A DNA stretch of 38,678 bases from Pirellulales bacterium (GTDB lineage: Bacteria > Planctomycetota > Planctomycetia > Pirellulales > JADZDJ01): NCBI GenBank assembly GCA_035499655.1, contig DATJYL010000210.1, positions 1 to 38,678 of the forward strand. Direction: 5' to 3'. The notes below the pieces were generated by a model. That model made no database searches, had not been told where the DNA came from, and saw nothing but the letters and a program-made list of their open reading frames with translations. A program made the translations under genes and the position numbers. Each line of letters begins with the position of its first letter. Within the stretch, counting starts at the first letter, position 1. Of the stretch, positions 6,232 to 27,928 are shown piece by piece.

Positions 6232-7347
6232 ATGAAAATCAGCTTTGAACGGGAAAAACTTCACGCTGCGTTCCAAACAGCGGCTAGCGTGGCCCCAGCC
6301 CGCAGTCCTAAGCCCATATTGCAAAATATAAAGCTGGAAGTTGCCGGCGATGCTGCGACCATCATGGCCACAGACCTGGAAGTGGGCATTCGTATCAGCG
6401 TGCCGGGAGTCACTGTGGATACACCCGGCAGCACAGTGTTGCCCATAGCTCGCTTTGGCCCAATTTTGCGTGAATGCACGGATGAAAAACTGCACTTGGA
6501 AAGCGATCCGCAAGGCACCTTAGTTCGCGGCGACCGGAGTGAATGGAAATTGCCGGGCGAAAATCCCGACGAGTTTCCCAATGTCACCTCCTTTAAGGAG
6601 GAAAAATTTCACGAATTGGCGGCGCGGTTGTTTCGAGAAATGGTGCGACGCACGGTTTTCGCTACCGACAACGAAAGCAGCCGCTACGCGCTGGGCGGCG
6701 TGCTGTTGGAAATGGAGGGAGACAAAATCATCGCCGTCGGCACCGATGGCCGCCGGCTGGCTAAAATGGAAGGGCCGGCACACGCGGTAAACGGCCATCA
6801 AACCGCCAACCAAACCACCATCGTGCCCACCCGGGCTATGAATTTGCTGGAGCGGGCCATCGTCGATGGTGATGGCGAAGTGCAAATTTCGGCCCGCGCA
6901 AACGATATTTTAGTCCGCAGTCCGCGCTTCACAATTTATTCGCGGTTGGTGGAAGGGCGTTTTCCCAAATGGCGCGATGTCTTTCCACGCCGCAGCGATG
7001 TCGTAAAAACCGAATTGGCCGTGGGCCCGTTTTACGCGGCAGTTCGCCAGGCGGCCATCGCCACCAGTGAGGAAAGCCGCGGCATTGATTTTTGCTTCGA
7101 AAACGGTTTGTTGGTCCTGGCCGGCCGTGCCGCCGACGTAGGGCAATCCCGCGTCGAATTGCCCATCGCCTACAACGGACCGAAAATTTCCATCACGCTG
7201 GATCCGCGCTTTGTGACCGATTTCCTCCGCGTGCTCGATCCGGAAAAAACATTCACCCTGGAGTTGAAGGATTCCGACAGCGCGGCCGTGTGCACCACCA
7301 GCGATGGCTACGGTTACGTCATCATGCCGCTGGCGCGCGATCGGTAA
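6232..7347 (+). CDS. dnaN: DNA polymerase III subunit beta (sliding clamp)
   Basis: Ring-shaped processivity clamp that holds DNA polymerase III and other enzymes on DNA. The 371-residue product matches the usual length and three-domain plan: MKISFEREKLHAAFQTAASVAPARSPKPILQNIKLEV opens domain 1, RYALGGVLLEMEGDKIIAVGTDGRRLAKME marks domain 2, and the C-terminus YVIMPLARDR is the typical end of the family (PM.L motif). It lies between dnaA and the DUF721 gene, with only a 9-bp gap to the latter, suggesting co-transcription. Confidence 0.96.
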   Translation: MKISFEREKLHAAFQTAASVAPARSPKPILQNIKLEVAGDAATIMATDLEVGIRISVPGVTVDTPGSTVLPIARFGPILRECTDEKLHLESDPQGTLVRGDRSEWKLPGENPDEFPNVTSFKEEKFHELAARLFREMVRRTVFATDNESSRYALGGVLLEMEGDKIIAVGTDGRRLAKMEGPAHAVNGHQTANQTTIVPTRAMNLLERAIVDGDGEVQISARANDILVRSPRFTIYSRLVEGRFPKWRDVFPRRSDVVKTELAVGPFYAAVRQAAIATSEESRGIDFCFENGLLVLAGRAADVGQSRVELPIAYNGPKISITLDPRFVTDFLRVLDPEKTFTLELKDSDSAAVCTTSDGYGYVIMPLARDR

Positions 7348-10561: not shown

Positions 10562-10662
10562 GTTGCGGATTGCTCGCAGGCCGGGATCGGTTACACTAAA
10601 AATATCGTGCTCCGCACTGCTGACGGGTTGCGGATTGCTCGCAGGCCGGGATCGGTTACACT
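10562..10662 (+). CRISPR. Minimal CRISPR array: two identical 36-bp repeats, one 29-bp spacer
   Basis: Two perfect copies of a 36-bp repeat (beginning GTTGCGG, ending TTACACT) lie at 10562-10597 and 10627-10662. They enclose a 29-bp spacer at 10598-10626. Repeat and spacer lengths are typical for type II. The + strand orientation is chosen because both tracrRNA anti-repeats near 16.5 and 17.0 kb are complementary to this strand and end with the complement of the GTTGCGG half, as required for crRNA:tracrRNA pairing. The array would be transcribed toward cas2, convergent with the cas genes. The 135 bp after gyrB (10427-10561) is the presumed leader. With only one spacer the array is either ancestral-minimal, decayed, or collapsed in assembly. 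Confidence 0.9.
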
Positions 10663-10691
10663 ACTCCGGCGCTAACCGGCTTTCCGCACAC

Positions 10692-10712
10692 GGCTTGCGA
10701 GCAATCCGCAAT
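10692..10712 (-). repeat. Inverted half-repeat downstream of the array
   Basis: These 21 bp are the reverse complement of the first 21 bp of the CRISPR repeat with two mismatches. They begin 29 bp after the second repeat, which is exactly one spacer length, and run into the cas2 stop codon at 10712-10714. Together with the second repeat they could form a stem of about 20 bp in a transcript of either strand. It may be a decayed inverted terminal repeat, an anti-repeat-like element, or a processing/termination hairpin for cas2 or the array. Confidence 0.6.
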
Positions 10713-11041
10713 CAAAAAAGTTCCAATTGGCATGGCGCTGGCTCGGGCGGTTTGCGTAGTTTTCCCCAAAAAACGCGCATTCGTTCAAACTGTTTGTCGG
10801 TAATCGTCAGCAGCCGCACTTCTCCGTCAGGCGGCACGTGTTTCTCTATGCGCTGCGCATGCACCACAGCGCTTTCCTCGCTGGCGCAATGCCGAGCATA
10901 TACCGAAAATTGCATCTTCGTAAAGCCGTCGCGCAGCAGCACCTTCCGAAATTGCGCGTAAGCCCGTCGGGCCTTCTTTGTGTCCACCGGCAAATCGAAC
11001 ATGGCCAAAACCCACATGCAGCGATATCCGCTAATGAACAC
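10712..11041 (-). CDS. cas2: CRISPR-associated endoribonuclease-fold protein Cas2
   Basis: Cas2 is the dimeric scaffold of the Cas1-Cas2 integrase that inserts new spacers. The 109-residue frame contains the ferredoxin-fold start WVLAMFDLPVDTKKARRAYAQFRKVLLRDGFTKMQFSVYARHC, with the conserved Asp of the first strand, and VRLLTITDKQFERM. The length is normal. The start may be the ATG at 11041 or the internal ATG at 11017 just before WVLAMF. It begins about 11 bp after the cas1 stop, so the two are surely one transcript. It is the last cas gene of the locus; the array lies about 50 bp beyond its stop in convergent orientation. Confidence 0.93.
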   Translation of the reverse strand: MFISGYRCMWVLAMFDLPVDTKKARRAYAQFRKVLLRDGFTKMQFSVYARHCASEESAVVHAQRIEKHVPPDGEVRLLTITDKQFERMRVFWGKLRKPPEPAPCQLELF

Positions 11042-11052
11042 GGCAAAGAAGA

Positions 11053-12060
11053 TTAGGGAGTAGGGGTCAGGGGCGAGGAAGCCGTCGGCAGATTTTCTCT
11101 CGGCGCAAAGTCAAGCTCCGACTGCGATTTGCCGCGGAATGCCACCGTGGGGATTTCGAGCTGTTTGGCGGCTCCATCGTAACAACGCACCAGCGACGCT
11201 ACATAACGATGCAAATTCACCAGCAGCGGTCCGCGCTGCTCACCCAGTTCGACCGGCTCGGACAGCAGCTCCAGTAATTTTGCCTTCACCGCTGGCGTCA
11301 ATTCGCACGCGCCGCCGGCGAAAATGGTCCGCACCCGCGCATCCACCAGCGGCCGCAGCGGCTCAATCAAATCGTCCGCCAAACTGAAAGCGTTGGAGCG
11401 ATTGGAATGCTTCAGTCCCAGCGCCGGCAGCAAGCCCGCCGCCACAATTGCCCGGGCCAGCGCGGCCCGCACCACGGCATAGCCATAATTCAGCAAATTG
11501 TTCGGTGGCGCCCCGTCCGGATCGCGCCGAAAAACTGTTTCTCCCTCGCCCTTTGGGAGAGGGCTGGGGTGAGGATGCCGCGCAAATAGCGCCGGCCAAT
11601 AAAATCGCCCCGCCTGCCCCTCGGCATTTTCAGGATCGCCCGACCGCACCTCGCGGGCAATCGCCAATAGCCGGGTTCGCGCGGGCCCGGCGAGAAGATT
11701 ATCAGCCTGCCCGCGAATTTTTGCCTGAATCAACTGCTTCCACAGCTGCTTCTTCAGCGGCTTGGGCACATCCACTTGCAGTTGCACCCGCCACACCACC
11801 TGCGAGTGATCGGCCAGCGGCAGTAAAATTCCGGCCGGCAAATGATTCCGCCCGCACACCACCACGGCGGCGTCGAATTCCATCAGCCGGGCCAGCGCGG
11901 CATGCGAATACGTGACCTGTGGCTGATCGACCAACAGCACGCCCAAATCTTCGCAGGGAATTCGGCCGACCGTTTCGCGATCGCGCTGAATTAAGAGCTG
12001 GTCCAAATGCACCGTCAAATAGGCGGCGTTCTGCGAGATTTCGACTGTGCGTTTAATCAT
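11053..12060 (-). CDS. cas1: CRISPR integrase Cas1 with an in-frame repeat insertion
   Basis: Metal-dependent DNA integrase of spacer acquisition. The 335-residue product has the Cas1 plan: N-terminal beta domain (MIKRTVEIS…AYLTVHLDQLLIQ), then the catalytic helical domain with the three metal-ligand candidates Glu147 in NAEGQAGRFYWPAL, His218 in LKHSNRSNAF and Asp229/230 in SLADDLIEPLRPLVD. Between FYWPALF and FRRDPDGAPPNNLLNYGYAV an extra segment of about 16 residues (around 160-175, including HPHPSPLPKGEGE) is encoded by a copy of the dispersed palindromic repeat at 11541-11575. Relatives normally pass straight from the PALF motif to FRRD. The frame and the catalytic residues survive, so the protein may still work. 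The proline-rich C-terminal tail is also unusual. Its own promoter is proposed at 12193-12220. Confidence 0.94.
   Translation of the reverse strand: MIKRTVEISQNAAYLTVHLDQLLIQRDRETVGRIPCEDLGVLLVDQPQVTYSHAALARLMEFDAAVVVCGRNHLPAGILLPLADHSQVVWRVQLQVDVPKPLKKQLWKQLIQAKIRGQADNLLAGPARTRLLAIAREVRSGDPENAEGQAGRFYWPALFARHPHPSPLPKGEGETVFRRDPDGAPPNNLLNYGYAVVRAALARAIVAAGLLPALGLKHSNRSNAFSLADDLIEPLRPLVDARVRTIFAGGACELTPAVKAKLLELLSEPVELGEQRGPLLVNLHRYVASLVRCYDGAAKQLEIPTVAFRGKSQSELDFAPRENLPTASSPLTPTP
11541..11575 (+). repeat. Dispersed palindromic repeat copy inside cas1
   Basis: The copy has the form ctccctcgcc…ttgggagagggctggggtgagg, matching four other copies in this window (12084, 26215, 27318, 27829). The core is an inverted repeat of CCCTC…GAGGG followed by a (g)ggtgagg tail. 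This copy lies inside the cas1 coding frame and is translated as part of HPHPSPLPKGEGE. Confidence 0.85.
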
Positions 12061-12192: not shown

Positions 12193-12220
12193 AGTATATC
12201 TGGGTGGATCACTGTGTCAA
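12193..12220 (-). promoter_or_regulatory. Sigma-70-type promoter for cas1-cas2
   Basis: Read on the - strand, TTGACA (12220-12215) and TATACT (12198-12193) are separated by 16 bp. The -35 hexamer overlaps the cas9 stop codon (12217-12219). Transcription would start near 12186 and run into cas1, giving the adaptation genes a promoter independent of cas9. This is a near-consensus match; activity is not shown. Confidence 0.6.
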
Positions 12221-15200
12221 TCGTTCGCCCACCGAATTTTACCGAGGGGACTGACCTGGATTTTGACCGCGTGTGGATGTTCGGGAGGCGCCAGTTCCTT
12301 TAAATCACTGGGAGTTATAGTGAATTGTTCGCGCTCGGAATCGGGAACTTTCTTGCCTTCTGCATCCTTCCGCTGCGTGGCGGAGCGAGCATCCCAATGG
12401 GGAACGAGTACGATGCCCTGCGGTTTATCCAGCTTGGCCACCACGAAATAACCAACTTCACCCGATCCATTTTTGTGTTTCATGAGCAGCATTTCTCCTT
12501 CGCAAATGGACATGACGAATTTGCCTCCTTTTTCGTCGTTATCGGAACGGTCGACTATCGGATGCGCATTTTCAATTTCGCGAAGCAGAGGTTTGAATTT
12601 TTCACGCTCCGGCTTGGAAAATTTCCGTAATGCGGCAGGCGTGGGGATGCCCGTTTCCCGCATTGCTTGAAGCCGAGCTAGCTTCCGCTGGTTTGCTTCA
12701 AAGGTTGTTACGATTTTCCCCGACCAAACCTCTTGGCCTTTTTTATTTCTTGAAACTCGAATTTCAATGTGATGGTTGTTCCCGCCTACATAGGCGCGCG
12801 CCGCAGAAGCGTCTCCTTTACCTGTCAATCCATCATAGAGTTTGAATCGATTACCCGTGGTATGTTCGGTTGCCCATCTCGATATCACGACGGGATCAGA
12901 CATTGCGCGCAGCAGAACGATCGATCGAATAGGTACTCCCGATTTATGACAAATCGCTCCAGCTTCGTAAGCTTGCTTGATTTCATTCTGCGTGAAATCA
13001 TCCGGATTAATGTGTGTGGGTTCGCCAATCGTCTCGCCGCTTTTGTTCTTTTTGGCGTAAGAAAATGCACTCAAACATTCGCGGATCCGTTTCCGCAGTG
13101 CCAAATCGCGAACCAAGCCGCTCTTTCCCACCGCTGGATCAATTTTCCGAGGCGTGTATGCCTTTGACGAAACGATTGCCTTGGCCCGCTTTCGAGCCGG
13201 ACGAATATCAGTATCAAGTTTTTGATTCAGATAGCGTTGTGCCAGCCGTTCAATTGCTTCGGCAGGCGTTTCATCTCTGGGAAGCCTTAAATGATTTGGA
13301 TCGAGTTGCAGAACACTTTTTTTGGCAGAATAATTTTCGGTCAGTTTTCCCTGTCGGTCGACGACTGGCCCGAAAAGAGTTTCCTCGTGCAACGCACCGA
13401 TCAGTTTGCGTTTTACTGGCCGATGGCAAATAGGGCGTTCGAGTTGGCCATCGCCGAATACGGCACATCGAACTGCTTCACGGAATTCATCACGAGTTTT
13501 ATAAGGTTTGGGTGGATCAAGAGGGTGGAGGCGACGATAGTTTTCCATCTGCTGCTCATCCGCCGTGTTTAGTCCTTCGCAGTCGGCTTGTTCCTCACGC
13601 ATTCTCCATGCGCCCTGGACCTCAACAGTGCAGTATCCGATGACAATAGCGTCGATGGCATGATGGCGGTGATCGCCGCGATTTTTTTCCTTCCTTTCGC
13701 GCTCAACTTGGTCCGTAAGCCCCTTGGCTTCGAAGTGATGCGGATCGAAAAATAGACCCCATTCGCGGCGCAATCGCGCTGTCCATATGCCATCGGTGGC
13801 AAAAATTCGCCGTTCTCCACCTCGCTCAGGAAGACCGTTGCCGTCGAAAAGTGCATCGGCCAAATAGGCCATGACTTGGCGCGTTGCGTATTTGGTGGCC
13901 GCATCCTGCCGTGCCGTCATGCCTTGAATATCTTTGATGTCTTTCTTGAATTGCGAAATCTTGGCTAAATCGTCCAGCCGATTGAAGTAGCACAACCAAA
14001 GCGAATTTCCTTCAGCAGTTTTAATTTCCGAGGGCTTAGGCCGCTCGATGCTTGCATACATTTTTTCAATCCATGCCATGCCATCGTCAAAACCTCCTGG
14101 AACAGCTTCTTCCCAAAACTGACGCGGCGTGCGACGGCCCATTTTGCGGTTACATTCATCGTGCGCCAAAACAATGTTCTTCCAACCGTTGTCGCCCCCG
14201 CCGCCTCGGGGCAGAATGTGTGCAATTTCGCAACCAGACCCCCTAGCGGCCAAGTTAGGGGTAAGCCCCCCTTTTCCACACAATGGACAAACTTGATCCT
14301 GCTGAATTGCTAAGACAACTCTTTCAAACGCCGCGCGCTGCTGTGTCGATGATACCGAGTCGAGTTTAAAACTGATTAAAATGTCATTTTTGATTCGACT
14401 TCGCAGGCGATTTTTGAACAGCAATTCATCCGCCTGTTTTTTGCCCATCCGCGCTTCGCGGGAAAGTTCAATCCGAACTTCGTCCGGCTTTCGCTCAAAC
14501 GTAATCATGTATTCAATTAGATGCCGGCGCACCTCGTGAATGGCCTTCCGAACGACCGGATTGCTGATCAGCGGGGCTGGCGGCGGCTCGCTCAATGGCT
14601 TTCCATCGAAACCAATGATCGGCTTGCCATTTTTTTTGAGAATATGCTTTCGTAAATAGTGACGATCTCGCTTCGTAGCTCCCTTGGCGCCGGTTGCATA
14701 GCGCCGGCGAGTGTGGCAGTCCAAGGGCTTACCGGTAGTGGCATCCAGAAAATCGTTCATCTTGGCGATCATTTTGCGCGCCGCAATCTGCGTCAGCCAT
14801 TGTGGTTGGCCGTTTGTACTGGCATCGATCCAAGGTTCTTTACGATCCATGACCGTTAGGATATTGCGCACTGCACGGCGGCTCATGTTTAGCCGTTTGG
14901 CGTCGGGCCGAGGCCGCTTTTTCCAGGCAGCAATCAAGGCGTCGGCTTGACCTTCCTTAAGCGCTGCCCAATCCATGATGCCTGCTTTCAATTTGGCGGT
15001 ATCCTTTTCCTCGTCCGGGTCGAATTTCAAAATTGCGTGATTGATGCCCTGTTGAACTCGCTCCGACAGCGCCGTCCATTTTTCGATGCCAACTGCACCG
15101 TGAATGATTTCCCTGCTGAACCAGTCGGTATTGATATTACGATTTTCATCAGATTCAATGTTGAAGCGAAATGGACTTGTACTCGTAGCACGACCCCAGT

Positions 15201-16425
15201 CCATCAACTCGCGCAAATCCGAAACGGTGACCGAGCGCTTGGATTGGCCTTTCGACTTTCCTTTCGCCTGCAATCCTAACGGCCCACAAAGATAGGCCTG
15301 GATTTTATTGCGTTCAGTAGCCGTGAGCGGCCGAGCCTCTCGTCCGCGTTCGATGATTTTTAGATTATTCACTGTCTCCACGACTAAATAGCGAGAAGCA
15401 TACATGTCGGCATGAGGGGCACAGCGTTCCGACGGCTCAAGCACGCATCTTCCTAAAGTGCCCAAATCCCACGATTGTTTTCGCTGGCCAAATAGCAACC
15501 CTTGGTGTCGCCACTGGGCATCTCCTTGTTCGTTATCAAGCCCCGTCCGCAATTCAGCACTCAATTTTTGCGCCAGCGGACCACCGTAATTCTTTTGTTT
15601 GTTCCACAGTTTCGCAAATTCGTCGCGAATCATTGCCCGATCGGCGTGAAAGCGAAATTCTCCCGCTCGATTGCGTACCGGTTTCCGCCATTCGCGCGGG
15701 CCGGCTTTTTTCTTTCGCCGGTCGGAAGTAGTGATCGGCGTGCGCCATTCATCGCGCAGGTCAGCAATTAACCGACCAAAGGTGACCGTGGGATCTTCTA
15801 AGAGTTGATGGCAGTGCTGCTTGAGTTTTTCTTGAGCCTGCTCAAGCTCATCGCTTTCTTGGTCGGTTCGGTTTTTCTTCTTGTTGAGCGTTTCCATTAA
15901 TACTTGGATGCCATGTGAATCGGCCTTGGCCTCCGCAGATCCATATCGATCTAACATCGCCAAATGCGTCTTCGTGATCGCCGATTTTACTTTTCCCTTA
16001 TCGCCGACTTCAGCGTCGAATCCTAACGCCCCGCGACGTTGGGCCAGATGAAGCAGCAAGCGACCGAATTCATGCGGTTCCAATTCCCGAGAAAGCCCTT
16101 CTCGTCGAAGCAGCCACGGATCGGTTTCGCCTAGCTGCCGATCAAATTGCACGGGATCAGCCGGCAGCAATCCAACAGAAATTAGTTTCTGTCGCAATAA
16201 TCGCTTGCGCTGCGCCCGACGTGCTAGGGTAATGCGTGTTCGACGAGTTGATCTGCGCTTGGCGTTCTTGGGATCGCCGCGTTTATCGTCCGATTCATCG
16301 ACACCGGCAGGAAATATGCTAACGCCAGCGTGAAGTTCCTGGCTGTCCGAATCAATCCACCCGCTTCCTACGGAATTACTGCCGATATCTAAACTTAAAA
16401 AGACCCTGCCCTTTTGTGGTTCCAT
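12217..16425 (-). CDS. cas9: Large Cas9 effector nuclease of a type II-C-like locus
   Basis: RNA-guided DNA nuclease. From the ATG at 16425, preceded by CAGGGG at a suitable distance, the product has 1402 residues; an upstream in-frame ATG at 16473 would run into the tracrRNA promoter and is less likely. RuvC-I is LSLDIGSNSVGSGWID (Asp13), the arginine-rich bridge helix is at about 56-82, and RuvC-II is EVRIELSREARMGKKQADE (Glu653). HNH spans about 705-765 with CPLCG (Cys713/716), CEIAHILPR (His736) and NIVLAHDECNRKMG (Asn750, Asn759). RuvC-III is RGDHRHHAIDAIVIGY (His922, Asp925). A C-terminal part of nearly 480 residues would hold the WED and PAM-interacting regions. The length is that of type II-A SpCas9, although neither csn2 nor cas4 is present. 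The position before the HNH His, usually Asp, is Ala735. Divergent twin tracrRNA genes lie immediately upstream. Confidence 0.97.
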   Translation of the reverse strand: MEPQKGRVFLSLDIGSNSVGSGWIDSDSQELHAGVSIFPAGVDESDDKRGDPKNAKRRSTRRTRITLARRAQRKRLLRQKLISVGLLPADPVQFDRQLGETDPWLLRREGLSRELEPHEFGRLLLHLAQRRGALGFDAEVGDKGKVKSAITKTHLAMLDRYGSAEAKADSHGIQVLMETLNKKKNRTDQESDELEQAQEKLKQHCHQLLEDPTVTFGRLIADLRDEWRTPITTSDRRKKKAGPREWRKPVRNRAGEFRFHADRAMIRDEFAKLWNKQKNYGGPLAQKLSAELRTGLDNEQGDAQWRHQGLLFGQRKQSWDLGTLGRCVLEPSERCAPHADMYASRYLVVETVNNLKIIERGREARPLTATERNKIQAYLCGPLGLQAKGKSKGQSKRSVTVSDLRELMDWGRATSTSPFRFNIESDENRNINTDWFSREIIHGAVGIEKWTALSERVQQGINHAILKFDPDEEKDTAKLKAGIMDWAALKEGQADALIAAWKKRPRPDAKRLNMSRRAVRNILTVMDRKEPWIDASTNGQPQWLTQIAARKMIAKMNDFLDATTGKPLDCHTRRRYATGAKGATKRDRHYLRKHILKKNGKPIIGFDGKPLSEPPPAPLISNPVVRKAIHEVRRHLIEYMITFERKPDEVRIELSREARMGKKQADELLFKNRLRSRIKNDILISFKLDSVSSTQQRAAFERVVLAIQQDQVCPLCGKGGLTPNLAARGSGCEIAHILPRGGGGDNGWKNIVLAHDECNRKMGRRTPRQFWEEAVPGGFDDGMAWIEKMYASIERPKPSEIKTAEGNSLWLCYFNRLDDLAKISQFKKDIKDIQGMTARQDAATKYATRQVMAYLADALFDGNGLPERGGERRIFATDGIWTARLRREWGLFFDPHHFEAKGLTDQVERERKEKNRGDHRHHAIDAIVIGYCTVEVQGAWRMREEQADCEGLNTADEQQMENYRRLHPLDPPKPYKTRDEFREAVRCAVFGDGQLERPICHRPVKRKLIGALHEETLFGPVVDRQGKLTENYSAKKSVLQLDPNHLRLPRDETPAEAIERLAQRYLNQKLDTDIRPARKRAKAIVSSKAYTPRKIDPAVGKSGLVRDLALRKRIRECLSAFSYAKKNKSGETIGEPTHINPDDFTQNEIKQAYEAGAICHKSGVPIRSIVLLRAMSDPVVISRWATEHTTGNRFKLYDGLTGKGDASAARAYVGGNNHHIEIRVSRNKKGQEVWSGKIVTTFEANQRKLARLQAMRETGIPTPAALRKFSKPEREKFKPLLREIENAHPIVDRSDNDEKGGKFVMSICEGEMLLMKHKNGSGEVGYFVVAKLDKPQGIVLVPHWDARSATQRKDAEGKKVPDSEREQFTITPSDLKELAPPEHPHAVKIQVSPLGKIRWAND

Positions 16426-16461: not shown

Positions 16462-16489
16462 TTGACTCCCCACCGATAGCGGTTATGAT
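16462..16489 (+). promoter_or_regulatory. Promoter of tracrRNA gene A
   Basis: TTGACT (16462-16467) and TATGAT (16484-16489) are separated by 16 bp. The predicted start is near 16496, right at the first base of the anti-repeat. The -35 lies only 37 bp from the cas9 start codon on the other strand, so the two divergent transcription units share this short region. Confidence 0.75.
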
Positions 16490-16495
16490 AGCACA

Positions 16496-16600
16496 AAGTG
16501 TAACTGATCTCAGCCTGCTGTTTTCCGCAACAAGTGTAAAACACAGGCACCGCCTTCGGGCGACCAACCGCAGCTCGCACAAACGACCTGCGGTTTTTTA
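16496..16600 (+). ncRNA. tracrRNA, copy A
   Basis: The RNA would be about 105 nt. Its first 36 nt (agtgtaactgatctc…ttttccgcaac) are a full-length anti-repeat: the 5' part matches the complement of the repeat 3' half with about three substitutions, and the 3' part TCCGCAAC pairs perfectly with the first 8 bases of the repeat, GTTGCGGA. The middle is mispaired, which would give the usual bulge. It is followed by a nexus-type hairpin, cgcc-ttcg-ggcg, at 16551-16562, and a terminator hairpin with a T run at 16567-16599. It has its own promoter. Of the two copies it has the better lower stem, so it is the more likely main tracrRNA. Confidence 0.88.
16567..16599 (+). terminator. Rho-independent terminator of tracrRNA A
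   Basis: accgcag (16567-16573) pairs with ctgcggt (16588-16594), and a run of six T ends at 16599. The hairpin also serves as the 3' hairpin of the tracrRNA. hicB starts 19 bp further on, so any read-through would produce a tracrRNA-hicB transcript. Confidence 0.8.
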
Positions 16601-16617
16601 CTTTTGGGAACTAACAG

Positions 16618-16866
16618 ATGAGTGAAGCAGCAATTCGCCTCCATATCGAACCTTTAGATGCAGGCGGTTATGTGGCTACCAGCCCCGACGTTCCCGGTTT
16701 GGTTGCCGAAGGCCGCAGCATTGTAGAGGTGGCGGAAATCGCCCGTGATGTGGCGCGCAAAATTGCTGAAATGTGCCGCGAGAATGGTGATCCTTTGCCG
16801 CCGGCCCTCGCAACATTCGATGATACGAAACCGTTTGATCTGACAATTCCCGTGGGAGTCGGGTAA
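16618..16866 (+). CDS. hicB: HicB-family antitoxin
   Basis: An 82-residue protein of the HicB antitoxin family, with the partial RNase H-like fold: IRLHIEPLDAGGYVATSPDVPGLVAEGRSIVEVAEIARDVARKIAEMCRENGDPLPPAL. In intact modules HicB binds and inhibits the mRNA interferase HicA. Here it lies between the two tracrRNA genes in the same direction and starts directly after the terminator of copy A, with no clear promoter of its own. The stop codon overlaps the start of the truncated hicA by one base (taATG), the usual translational coupling. Because the toxin is broken it may be an orphan. HicB of this short form has no obvious DNA-binding tail, so autoregulation cannot be assumed. Confidence 0.85.
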   Translation: MSEAAIRLHIEPLDAGGYVATSPDVPGLVAEGRSIVEVAEIARDVARKIAEMCRENGDPLPPALATFDDTKPFDLTIPVGVG

Positions 16867-16940
16867 TGGGGCGCTTGGCGGGTTTCAAGTACACGGAAGT
16901 CACCCGCAAGTTGCGAACGCTGGGATTTCAAAAGGCTTGA
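16866..16940 (+). pseudogene. hicA: hicA toxin remnant (24 codons)
   Basis: This short frame starts MGRLAGFKYTEVTRKLRTLGF, which is the typical beginning of HicA toxins (MG.L.G..Y.EV.RRL..LGF). It stops after 24 codons, where a normal toxin of about 60-80 residues would continue with the catalytic GSH motif. The catalytic histidine is therefore missing. The homology ends 11 bp before the -35 box of tracrRNA B, which suggests that the recombination event that placed copy B here removed the rest of the toxin. Confidence 0.8.
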
Positions 16941-16950
16941 AGCGAAATGC

Positions 16951-16979
16951 TTGACAGTCGCCAATCACTCATTTATGAT
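16951..16979 (+). promoter_or_regulatory. Promoter of tracrRNA gene B
   Basis: A consensus -35 TTGACA (16951-16956) and TATGAT (16974-16979) are separated by the ideal 17 bp. The predicted start is near 16986, the first base of the second anti-repeat. It is closer to consensus than the copy A promoter. Confidence 0.8.
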
Positions 16980-16985
16980 TCGGGC

Positions 16986-17097
16986 AGTGTAACTGATCTC
17001 GGCCTGCTGAGTCTTTTCGCAAACAAGAAGAAGAATTCGCAGGCAACGCTCTACGGAGCGACCAGCCGCAATGCCTAACCGCAGGGCGGCTTTTTTA
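16986..17097 (+). ncRNA. tracrRNA, copy B
   Basis: A second tracrRNA gene of about 112 nt. The anti-repeat agtgtaactgatctc…cctgctg matches the 3' half of the repeat slightly better than copy A, but its 3' part (ttttcgcaaac) pairs with GTTGCGGA only with a bulge. The nexus is cgctc-tacg-gagcg at 17047-17060. Compared with copy A (cgcc-ttcg-ggcg) both strands of this stem changed together, which is compensatory variation and argues that the RNA structure was kept by selection. The terminator hairpin is at 17064-17096. It could be a second guide scaffold, a regulator, or a diverging duplicate. Confidence 0.82.
17064..17096 (+). terminator. Rho-independent terminator of tracrRNA B
   Basis: agccgc (17064-17069) pairs with gcggct (17086-17091), followed by a T run ending at 17096. 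It corresponds in position to the terminator of copy A but has a different loop. Confidence 0.7.
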
Positions 17098-26214: not shown

Positions 26215-26252
26215 CTCCCTCTCCTCGGGGAGAGGGCCGGGGTGAGGGGGTT
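26215..26252 (-). repeat. Dispersed palindromic repeat copy 3
   Basis: ctccctctcctcggggagag followed by ggccggggtgaggggg. It belongs to the same family as 11541 and 12084, and lies between the acyl-CoA operon and the nuclease-like gene. It marks the left edge of the AT-rich island. Confidence 0.85.
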
Positions 26253-26340: not shown

Positions 26341-27303
26341 ATGCCCTATAACATCTTTTCTACCTATGCAATCGGTGAAAATCGGGTCACAGCTTCGATT
26401 TTAGCAGTATTGCAGTCACTGTCACTTGAACGAATGACTCGAATTATAGGCGCTTTATTTGAAAGGCCCGAGTTCGAGCTGGTTTCGTTCAAAAATCAGG
26501 TTTCGGGAGGCGCTGACGGCATACCTGATGCTGAGATTTCAAGTAGTTGCCGATTATTGATCGAAACAAAAATAAAACAGAACGCTCTTGATCTAGAACA
26601 ACTGAAACGGCATGTTTCACGATTCAAAGACACGAAAGAGGCAACGAAATTGCTTTTGATTTTGACTCCAGATGATCGGACTCCTGATGTTATCAATGAA
26701 TTTTCTCCCGAGATAGTTACTTGGGCATCATTTGTAAAACTTCACCAAGCAATCGAAGAACTATTAAATGATAGGACGGAGATCATATCAGAGCGTGAAG
26801 CATTTCTTTTGAAGGAATTACAAGTCATGCTTGACCGTGAAGATTTGATTTCGAGTGCAAAAGATGTAGTAGTGGTTGCCGCACGTCGTGCGTGGCCCGA
26901 TTATCAACGCAATCACGCATATGTTTGTCAGCCGGGGCGTCAGTTTCAGCGGACAGATCGAATGGCCTTTTATGCAAATAATCAGATTTACCAATTAGTT
27001 CCTCGGATTCTAGATGTGCATGATCCCGTCGAGTTTATTCCGGATCGACATGGCGAAAAGTTGGATAATCTCATCAAAAAAATAATTCAGGAAACACCTC
27101 AGCGAAAAAACGAACAGCATAAGGTCGTCTTTCTTTCGGCACCCGACTCGCCTGATACAGTCATTTTGAGCAAGCCGATACCAAATGATCTAAAAACAAA
27201 AACAGGTCGTGCCGCAGCATACACAATGGGACAAAGGTACACGACTACGATTCTTCTACAAAAAGCGAAGTCGACAAGTGATTTAGACGTTGATGATGAG
27301 TAA
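26341..27303 (+). CDS. PD-(D/E)XK nuclease-like protein of unknown function
   Basis: A 320-residue protein preceded by a strong GGAGGG ribosome-binding site. The start (IFSTYAIGENRVTASILAVLQSL) and GIPDAEISSSCRLLIETKI give Asp63 and the Glu75-x-Lys77 pair in the order and spacing expected of a PD-(D/E)XK nuclease active site. The remainder has no clear motif to my eye. Its codon use is distinctly richer in A/T than the neighbours, which suggests horizontal transfer. Between palindromic repeats, next to a DUF559 gene, it may be a solitary restriction or phage-defence nuclease. Catalysis and function are not shown. Confidence 0.6.
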   Translation: MPYNIFSTYAIGENRVTASILAVLQSLSLERMTRIIGALFERPEFELVSFKNQVSGGADGIPDAEISSSCRLLIETKIKQNALDLEQLKRHVSRFKDTKEATKLLLILTPDDRTPDVINEFSPEIVTWASFVKLHQAIEELLNDRTEIISEREAFLLKELQVMLDREDLISSAKDVVVVAARRAWPDYQRNHAYVCQPGRQFQRTDRMAFYANNQIYQLVPRILDVHDPVEFIPDRHGEKLDNLIKKIIQETPQRKNEQHKVVFLSAPDSPDTVILSKPIPNDLKTKTGRAAAYTMGQRYTTTILLQKAKSTSDLDVDDE

Positions 27304-27317
27304 AATCCGAACAGTCT

Positions 27318-27350
27318 CCTCACCCCAGCCCTCTCCTCGAGGAGAGGGCG
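27318..27350 (+). repeat. Dispersed palindromic repeat copy 4
   Basis: cctcaccccagccctctcctc followed by gaggagagggcg, in the opposite orientation to copy 3. It separates the nuclease-like gene from the DUF559 gene. Confidence 0.85.
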
Positions 27351-27372
27351 ACAAAAATCACACCAATATTCC

Positions 27373-27780
27373 ATGCCACTTCGCCGCATTCCTAAATCGA
27401 GGCAAGCTTTTCAACACGCTCGGCGATTACGGCGCACGATGACCAAGCCGGAGCGGGCTCTGTGGCAGTTGTTGCGAGATCGGAGGCTTGCGCAACTTAA
27501 ATTTCGTCGGCAGCAACCGATTGGAAATTACATCGTGGATTTTTTCTGTGAAGCCGTTGGATTGCTGATCGAATTAGATGGTTCCAGTCATGATGGACAT
27601 GCTGGTTACGATCTGCAGCGGCAAGCGTGGTTGGAATCGCAAGGGTTGCGACTACTGCGAATTGCAAATGACGATGTCGTTGGTGATCCCGAAGCAGTTG
27701 TAATGGGCATTGCGCAGGCAGCGAGGATTGATGTTACTGGATGGTTGCAGAACGGACAAAATCTCGTCGAGATCGAGTGA
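27373..27780 (+). CDS. DUF559 (Vsr-like endonuclease fold) protein
   Basis: A 135-residue protein of the DUF559 family: [58 protein letters not shown]. The Asp residues of YIVDFFC and LIELDG correspond to the catalytic pattern of very-short-patch-repair-like endonuclease folds. The biological role of DUF559 proteins is unknown. It lies between two copies of the palindromic repeat, an arrangement often seen for this family, and may travel with them. Confidence 0.8.
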
Positions 27781-27828: not shown

Positions 27829-27863
27829 CCCCCTCACCCCGGCCCTCTCCCCGAGGAGAGGGA
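27829..27863 (+). repeat. Dispersed palindromic repeat copy 5
   Basis: ccctcaccccggccctctcc followed by ccgaggagagggag and a T run. It lies 48 bp after the DUF559 stop and could act as its terminator hairpin, since TTTTTC follows at 27864. Confidence 0.8.
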
Positions 27864-27928
27864 GTTTTTCTTTCTGAATCTATCCCAATCAAAGCTTCTC
27901 GATTCACTTATTAAATCCGCCAGCCACT

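Follow-up and report, generated by a model that had tools for sequence, protein, structure and literature searches.

Why should a type II-C locus of clustered regularly interspaced short palindromic repeats (CRISPR) with one Cas9 and one repeat type carry two genes for trans-activating CRISPR RNA (tracrRNA)? The locus lies in a 38,678-nucleotide stretch of a Pirellulales genome (Planctomycetota; contig DATJYL010000210.1 of assembly GCA_035499655.1), which at its full length is referred to as the window, and its two tracrRNAs are called A and B. Comparison with related loci makes it very probable that the locus arose through an in situ exchange, in which a compact cas9 was replaced by a cassette of a large cas9 with tracrRNA A, while tracrRNA B remained. 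Central to this reading is G035, a genome of the window's own family, whose locus has the same order as that of the window (array-cas2-cas1-cas9-hicB-hicA-tracrB) with a compact Cas9, B alone and no A. Between the window and G035, cas2 is 88%, cas1 77% and HicB 89% identical, compared with 28% for Cas9; a close cas1 and cas2 thus stand beside a distant cas9 at the same locus.

The gene content of the window locus is that of type II-C: cas9, cas1 (TIGR03639) and cas2 only, all on the minus strand, together with an array of two 36-bp repeats and one spacer; csn2 and cas4 are absent at the locus. The neighbours of the cas genes are gyrB and the hicBA/tracrRNA stretch, which runs on the plus strand upstream of cas9 in the order tracrRNA A, hicB-like gene, truncated hicA, tracrRNA B. 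The catalytic RuvC and HNH residues of Cas9 are intact (D13, E653, H736 and H919, all in invariant columns). The whole genome holds one Cas9 and one array, with no further repeat of that type elsewhere, and a role of B for a second repeat type or a second Cas9 was rejected on these grounds. The features are as follows.

16497-16603, plus strand: tracrRNA A, of the type assigned to the large Cas9 clade
16462-16489, plus strand: predicted promoter of tracrRNA A, TTGACT-16-TATGAT (10/12)
16986-17094, plus strand: tracrRNA B, of the type assigned to the compact Cas9 clade; probably remained after the cas9 swap
16951-16979, plus strand: predicted promoter of tracrRNA B, TTGACA-17-TATGAT (11/12)
12217-16425, minus strand: cas9, large type, 1402 aa, probably incoming
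12217-12255, minus strand: proposed 3' swap junction; final cas9 codons PLG/KIRWAND and stop, of compact-Cas9 type, then the resident cas9-cas1 spacer
11053-12060, minus strand: cas1, resident; nearest to the cas1 at G035's compact-Cas9 locus
10712-11041, minus strand: cas2, resident; 88% identity to G035
16618-16866, plus strand: hicB-like antitoxin gene; 89% identity to hicB in the equivalent place in G035
16866-16940, plus strand: hicA remnant, shortened by an internal deletion that spared the tracrB promoter
10562-10662, plus strand (CRISPR RNA, crRNA, orientation): CRISPR array, 36-bp repeats at 10562-10597 and 10627-10662, one 29-nt spacer
10664-10712, plus strand: degenerate inverted repeat beside the cas2 stop, forming a long hairpin with repeat 2

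Two complete tracrRNA genes fitted to one repeat

The initial annotation, made from this sequence without database searches, had described two complete tracrRNA genes here, and in this it was right: both lie on the plus strand at the place it gave, are fitted to the same repeat and have promoters of the form and spacing that it reported. Three promoter-like sites were found in the A-B stretch, compared with 0.3 in shuffled sequences, and the -10 boxes of the sigma-70-type promoters end about 7 nt before the anti-repeat in both genes. The anti-repeats start with AGTGTAACTGATCTC at 16497 and 16986 and are complementary to the repeat end to end. The predicted duplex with the repeat reaches -53.2 kcal/mol for A (z = -8.7) and -56.2 kcal/mol for B (z = -9.6), values that no shuffle equals, and among eight repeats tested A and B each pair best with that of their own genome. 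In total, the duplex of B is the stronger one; the better base of the lower stem that had been ascribed to A is nonetheless real, since B carries one extra A there. Both RNAs have a nexus stem, CGCC/GGCG in A and CGCTC/GAGCG in B as first described, and a 3' terminator of a hairpin plus T-run; covariation is seen in the B nexus. An Rfam scan of the window gave no match, and an unrestricted duplex-energy scan at -33 kcal/mol was too noisy to use.

Two further observations concern these RNAs. In the free RNAs, an anti-repeat GCCTG(C) pairs with a downstream (G)CAGGC before the nexus (window 16512-16550 and 17002-17044); the pairing is seen in A, in B and in both copies of a second genome with two tracrRNAs (G182), and is a possible apo-tracrRNA fold that has to be opened for the crRNA. 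A promoter-like site directed toward cas9 (16485-16513, extended -10 TATCAT) overlaps the tracrA -10 on the opposite strand, with a similar overlap in the G182 locus L018.

Two tracrRNA families and two Cas9 clades

Relatives of the large Cas9 (~1,200-1,500 aa) were collected from whole genomes and named contigs, nearly all of them Planctomycetota metagenome-assembled genomes and nearly all drafts; a contig scan with a single Cas9 sequence gave no matches, and one with an alignment as query gave 49 loci. An A-type tracrRNA adjoins cas9 in nearly all of these relatives. A genome search with a covariance model of B placed B-type RNAs beside a different, compact Cas9, in G507 (contig C96; 1066 aa) and in G035 (1046 aa); under this model B RNAs score 48-83 bits and A RNAs 20-42, with the B of locus L058 at 26. 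The compact Cas9 (~1,050 aa, 28% identical to the large one) is common in the order (58/394 genomes), and the two kinds of Cas9 form separate clades with support of 100. We examined about 30 compact-Cas9 loci (L085, L086, L091-L119), a sample mostly from one order. A B-type RNA was found in 24 of them (49-82 bits), usually with no other tracrRNA; L099 has a B truncated by the contig end. Since B-type RNAs thus accompany the compact Cas9 and A-type RNAs the large one, the distribution identifies each type as the predicted cognate of a separate Cas9 clade.

This bears on the history implied by the initial annotation, in which one tracrRNA gene was duplicated here and its nexus changed by compensatory mutations under selection. 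The two nexus stems do differ, but along the line between two RNA families: B belongs with tracrRNAs from compact-Cas9 loci and A with tracrRNAs from large-Cas9 loci, and it follows from cas1, cas2 and hicB that the locus earlier held a compact Cas9. The 24-nt 5' parts of the two anti-repeats are 96% identical, as a duplication would predict, yet this likeness follows from pairing with the same repeat. The cores of A and B are two old families, which follow the Cas9 clade and the host lineage, respectively. With the trees and G035 contradicting it, a local duplication is very improbable. A further idea, that B arose as an old paralogue within the large-Cas9 clade, was likewise dropped once the covariance model had placed B beside compact Cas9s.

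Probable exchange of cas9 in place

According to the scenario that we favour, an ancestral type II-C locus with the order still found in G035 would have lost its compact cas9 to an incoming cassette of a large cas9 and its own tracrRNA, A. The replaced stretch would reach from the last cas9 codons to just upstream of hicB, and resident B would have stayed; its promoter is still close to consensus, its terminator is present and its anti-repeat matches the resident repeat.

Phylogenetic trees agree with such exchanges. The Cas1 tree pairs the window with G035 as its sister (99), and G182, which has large Cas9, A, hicBA and B, with the compact-Cas9 genome G186 (95); locus L016 groups with compact locus L127 (99). 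In the RNA tree the A-type RNAs make up one side (92/90, 1 change), while the B RNAs of loci with both types are scattered among those of compact loci (9 changes). The A RNAs of the window, G182, L041 and L049 cluster (96/88), as do their Cas9s (97); window B is nearest to the B of G035, and G182 B to that of G115, from G182's own genus. As A clusters like its Cas9s and B follows the host locus, the pair of A and cas9 appears to move as a unit while B stays; the different nearest neighbours of the two B RNAs further argue that window and G182 swapped independently. Read together, the two trees point to several swaps that took place independently. Across large-Cas9 loci, a cas1 whose nearest neighbour comes from a compact locus is found at 6/10 dual loci and at 3/32 others (p = 0.002).

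The window also preserves a junction. Its large Cas9 ends in PLGKIRWAND, a tail of the form PLGxIRWAND that is typical of compact Cas9s (most of the 19 read) and absent in the other large Cas9s read to their true end. In the cas9-cas1 spacer, identity is 68% with G035, compared with 42% and 37% with two other large-Cas9 loci. The compact-type tail and the G035-like spacer therefore place the 3' junction within the last cas9 codons, and with the G035-like cas2, cas1 and HicB they argue that a resident compact cas9 was replaced almost to its last codons. On the 5' side the junction can be placed only between tracrA and hicB. A compact Cas9 was not found in the genome of the window, in G182 or in G926. 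That the window contig is an assembly chimera, joined at 12.2 or 16.6 kb, is unlikely, given that G182 has a parallel arrangement.

At locus L122 of G186 (6410-7199), we observed the reverse combination, a compact Cas9 beside an A-type tracrRNA, followed by hicB-hicA and B, which suggests that cas9 was exchanged more than once there.

Distribution and decay of the second tracrRNA

Two complete tracrRNA genes at a II-C locus had been called uncommon, which needs qualifying: about 11 of about 50 large-Cas9 loci hold, distal to A, a second B-type RNA or a large part of one. These dual loci are the window, G182 (L018/L074), G926 (L049), L041, G072 (L065), L052, L057, L058, L061, L064 and L072; beyond them, L071 has a degenerate B copy and L016 a B remnant. 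In the window, G182 and L058, a separate promoter precedes B, and the B anti-repeat is complete and fits the repeat of the same genome or locus. Hybrid tracrRNAs with a B-type nexus and an A-type terminator occur in two single-tracrRNA loci, L056 (7516-7601, large Cas9) and L112 (4736-4808, compact Cas9).

Several points weigh against our interpretation. In most other dual loci B sits directly 3' of the A terminator without a promoter and with its anti-repeat shortened or gone, so that a complete B is not maintained everywhere. In the window itself, the extra A at the spacer-proximal end of the B lower stem (CGCAAAC, compared with CGCAAC in A) is unusual, as nearly all relatives have CGYAAC, and could be early decay. 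The RNA trees are based on about 72 columns and have moderate support. No close compact donor locus was present in our sample for the deeper dual loci L057, L058, L061, L064 and L072. Finally, the case is built from sequence, with B expression inferred from a predicted promoter.

Present role of B

If both promoters are active, A and B would both be transcribed and pair with the pre-crRNA of the one array, and RNase III would cut both duplexes. A would be the main scaffold of the present Cas9; B would compete for the same crRNAs and may also load this Cas9. We consider the chances about even that the large Cas9 uses B, and those of co-option and relic nearly even.

Given a swap, B could be no more than a relic: a tracrRNA orphaned by the exchange, of no use to the incoming Cas9 and in the course of decay. 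We give this reading somewhat less than an even chance. The extra A in the window's lower stem and the loss of both anti-repeat and promoter from B in L052, L061 and L072 would fit such a fate, and tracrRNA and Cas9 have been found to be interchangeable only among close systems (PMC3936727), which speaks against use of B. However, window B retains an 11/12 promoter and pairs best with its own genome's repeat, and the hicA deletion left its promoter untouched. Moreover, between the sister loci L041 and L049, whose Cas9s share 66% identity, identity is 96% for B and 97% for A but 63% for the downstream flank (p = 5e-10), and G926, the genome of L049, is without a compact Cas9; B being as conserved as A, a pure relic is disfavoured there.

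The same conservation after the swap counts for B as a second working scaffold or a regulator of the large Cas9, providing extra tracrRNA or lowering activity as a competitor, which comes close to an even chance. The own promoters of B in the window, G182 and L058 and the match of its anti-repeat to the resident repeat in the window and G182 point in this direction, as does the L056 hybrid: serving a large Cas9, it argues that a B nexus is compatible with that clade. On the other hand, B is absent from most large-Cas9 loci and hence dispensable. The B scaffolds of window and G182 are 86% identical, compared with 53-59% in the flanks, but most of this likeness could be older than their swaps, and we do not take it as proof. 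That cas9 and its tracrRNA form a cassette which repeatedly replaces the effectors of unrelated type II-C loci, with the resident tracrRNA co-opted by a 28%-identical Cas9, is a proposal with somewhat less than an even chance.

The initial annotation had also likened B to the long tracrRNA form of Streptococcus pyogenes, tracr-L, which shows that tracr loci can encode self-guided RNAs (PMC11417352). A tracr-L or scaRNA-like (small CRISPR-Cas-associated RNA) function, with B directing Cas9 to its own promoter, is likewise very improbable. The -10 box of B ends 7 nt before the anti-repeat and so leaves no space for a 5' guide; B has no guide and repeat mimic upstream of the anti-repeat, and it is in anti-repeat sense rather than a degenerate repeat in crRNA sense with a guide. 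For the guides tested from the array and the inverted repeat, the rest of the window contains no seed match. The position of the promoter and these missing matches led us to reject autoregulation, whether by B or by array guides.

A candidate for such regulation was seen in compact-Cas9 loci with hicBA, where a lone repeat in crRNA sense lies in the cas9-hicB interval: L086 (5565-6005, G035), L120 (4883-5303, G111), L121 (6776-7231, G115) and L125 (2802-3135, G123). In L086, L120 and L121 about 20 nt before this repeat match a site 40-75 bp upstream (16-20/20; shuffles p <= 0.005), which is followed by AGGATACAT, AGAATACAT or AGAGGACAT; L125 has a weaker 13-nt match on the opposite strand. Judged by these matches, the element resembles a scaRNA/CreR-like crRNA, self-targeting and autoregulatory, that would serve a type II-C Cas9. 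It is lost in the window, where tracrA now sits.

Relation to known systems

In situ cas9 exchange is already known: the part of PMC12669027 concerned (Extended Data Fig. 9) describes it for type II-C of Flavobacteriales with cas1 kept, and passages of PMC6452270 treat effector-module exchange in general. The window resembles the Flavobacteriales case in having a close cas1 and a distant cas9 at one locus, with the adaptation module staying. It differs from the exchanges in the passages of both papers in that the cassette brings its own tracrRNA, the earlier one is retained, and the 3' junction is resolved to the last cas9 codons; tracrRNA is not mentioned in those passages. An exchange with its own tracrRNA and the old one retained was not found described: in a literature search that left several key tracrRNA surveys outside, we came upon no paper that reports a locus with two tracrRNA genes, a tracrRNA moving with cas9 or an old tracrRNA staying.

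Like other type II tracrRNAs, A and B have a promoter, a full anti-repeat, a nexus and a terminator and adjoin cas9; unlike the usual arrangement, RNAs of two families stand at a locus with a single repeat type and a single Cas9. A locus with more than one form of tracrRNA is also known from tracr-L and tracr-S of S. pyogenes (PMC11417352, PMC8730458), but those arise from two start sites of one gene, whereas A and B are separate genes, each of its own family, and B, unlike tracr-L, is without a 5' guide. Francisella likewise has a second small RNA, scaRNA, besides tracrRNA at its type II locus (PMC8730458, PMC6199352). That RNA is repeat-like and pairs with tracrRNA, while window B is an anti-repeat RNA predicted to pair with crRNA.

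Further features of the loci

A hicBA pair lies between cas9 (or tracrA) and tracrB at the equivalent position in at least six genomes (window 16618-16940, L018, L086, L120, L122 and L125); in L121 only hicB was detected. Window hicA is reduced to about 24 codons beside an intact hicB, while G182 (L018) has an intact hicA and G035 (L086) a full-length one. In G018, from the window's genus, a scar of a deleted CRISPR-Cas locus was seen (L087, 9740-9861), in which a single repeat is fused to the 3' part and terminator of a tracrB; neither kind of Cas9 was found in that genome.

Near-empty arrays, with two repeats or one repeat without a spacer, stand beside the cas genes in the window (10562-10662), G182 (L079, 1501-1536) and G004 (L016, 5751-5786), compared with 29 and 57 repeats in the large-Cas9 relatives L029 and L075. 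The hairpin of repeat 2 with the degenerate inverted repeat (10627-10712) has a predicted energy of -51.7 kcal/mol (z -7), and the inverted repeat was not seen in the relatives checked. Elsewhere in the window, perfect 36-nt inverted repeats (26215-26250 and 27829-27864) flank a gene pair (26341-27303 and 27373-27780), with a third related copy at 27318-27351.

Implications

Our comparison offers an explanation of how Cas9 can be exchanged despite its co-adaptation with tracrRNA: the tracrRNA would travel too, and the repeat, read by both anti-repeats, would be the shared interface. Dual-tracrRNA loci would thus be readable scars of past Cas9 swaps, useful for dating and counting them, as well as natural test pairs for the acceptance of a foreign scaffold by Cas9. 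They also call for caution in tracrRNA annotation, since an anti-repeat beside cas9 is not necessarily the cognate one. Should the resident RNA indeed be co-opted, these loci would be natural systems of one Cas9 with two scaffolds, the old RNA tuning the new enzyme or serving as its backup.
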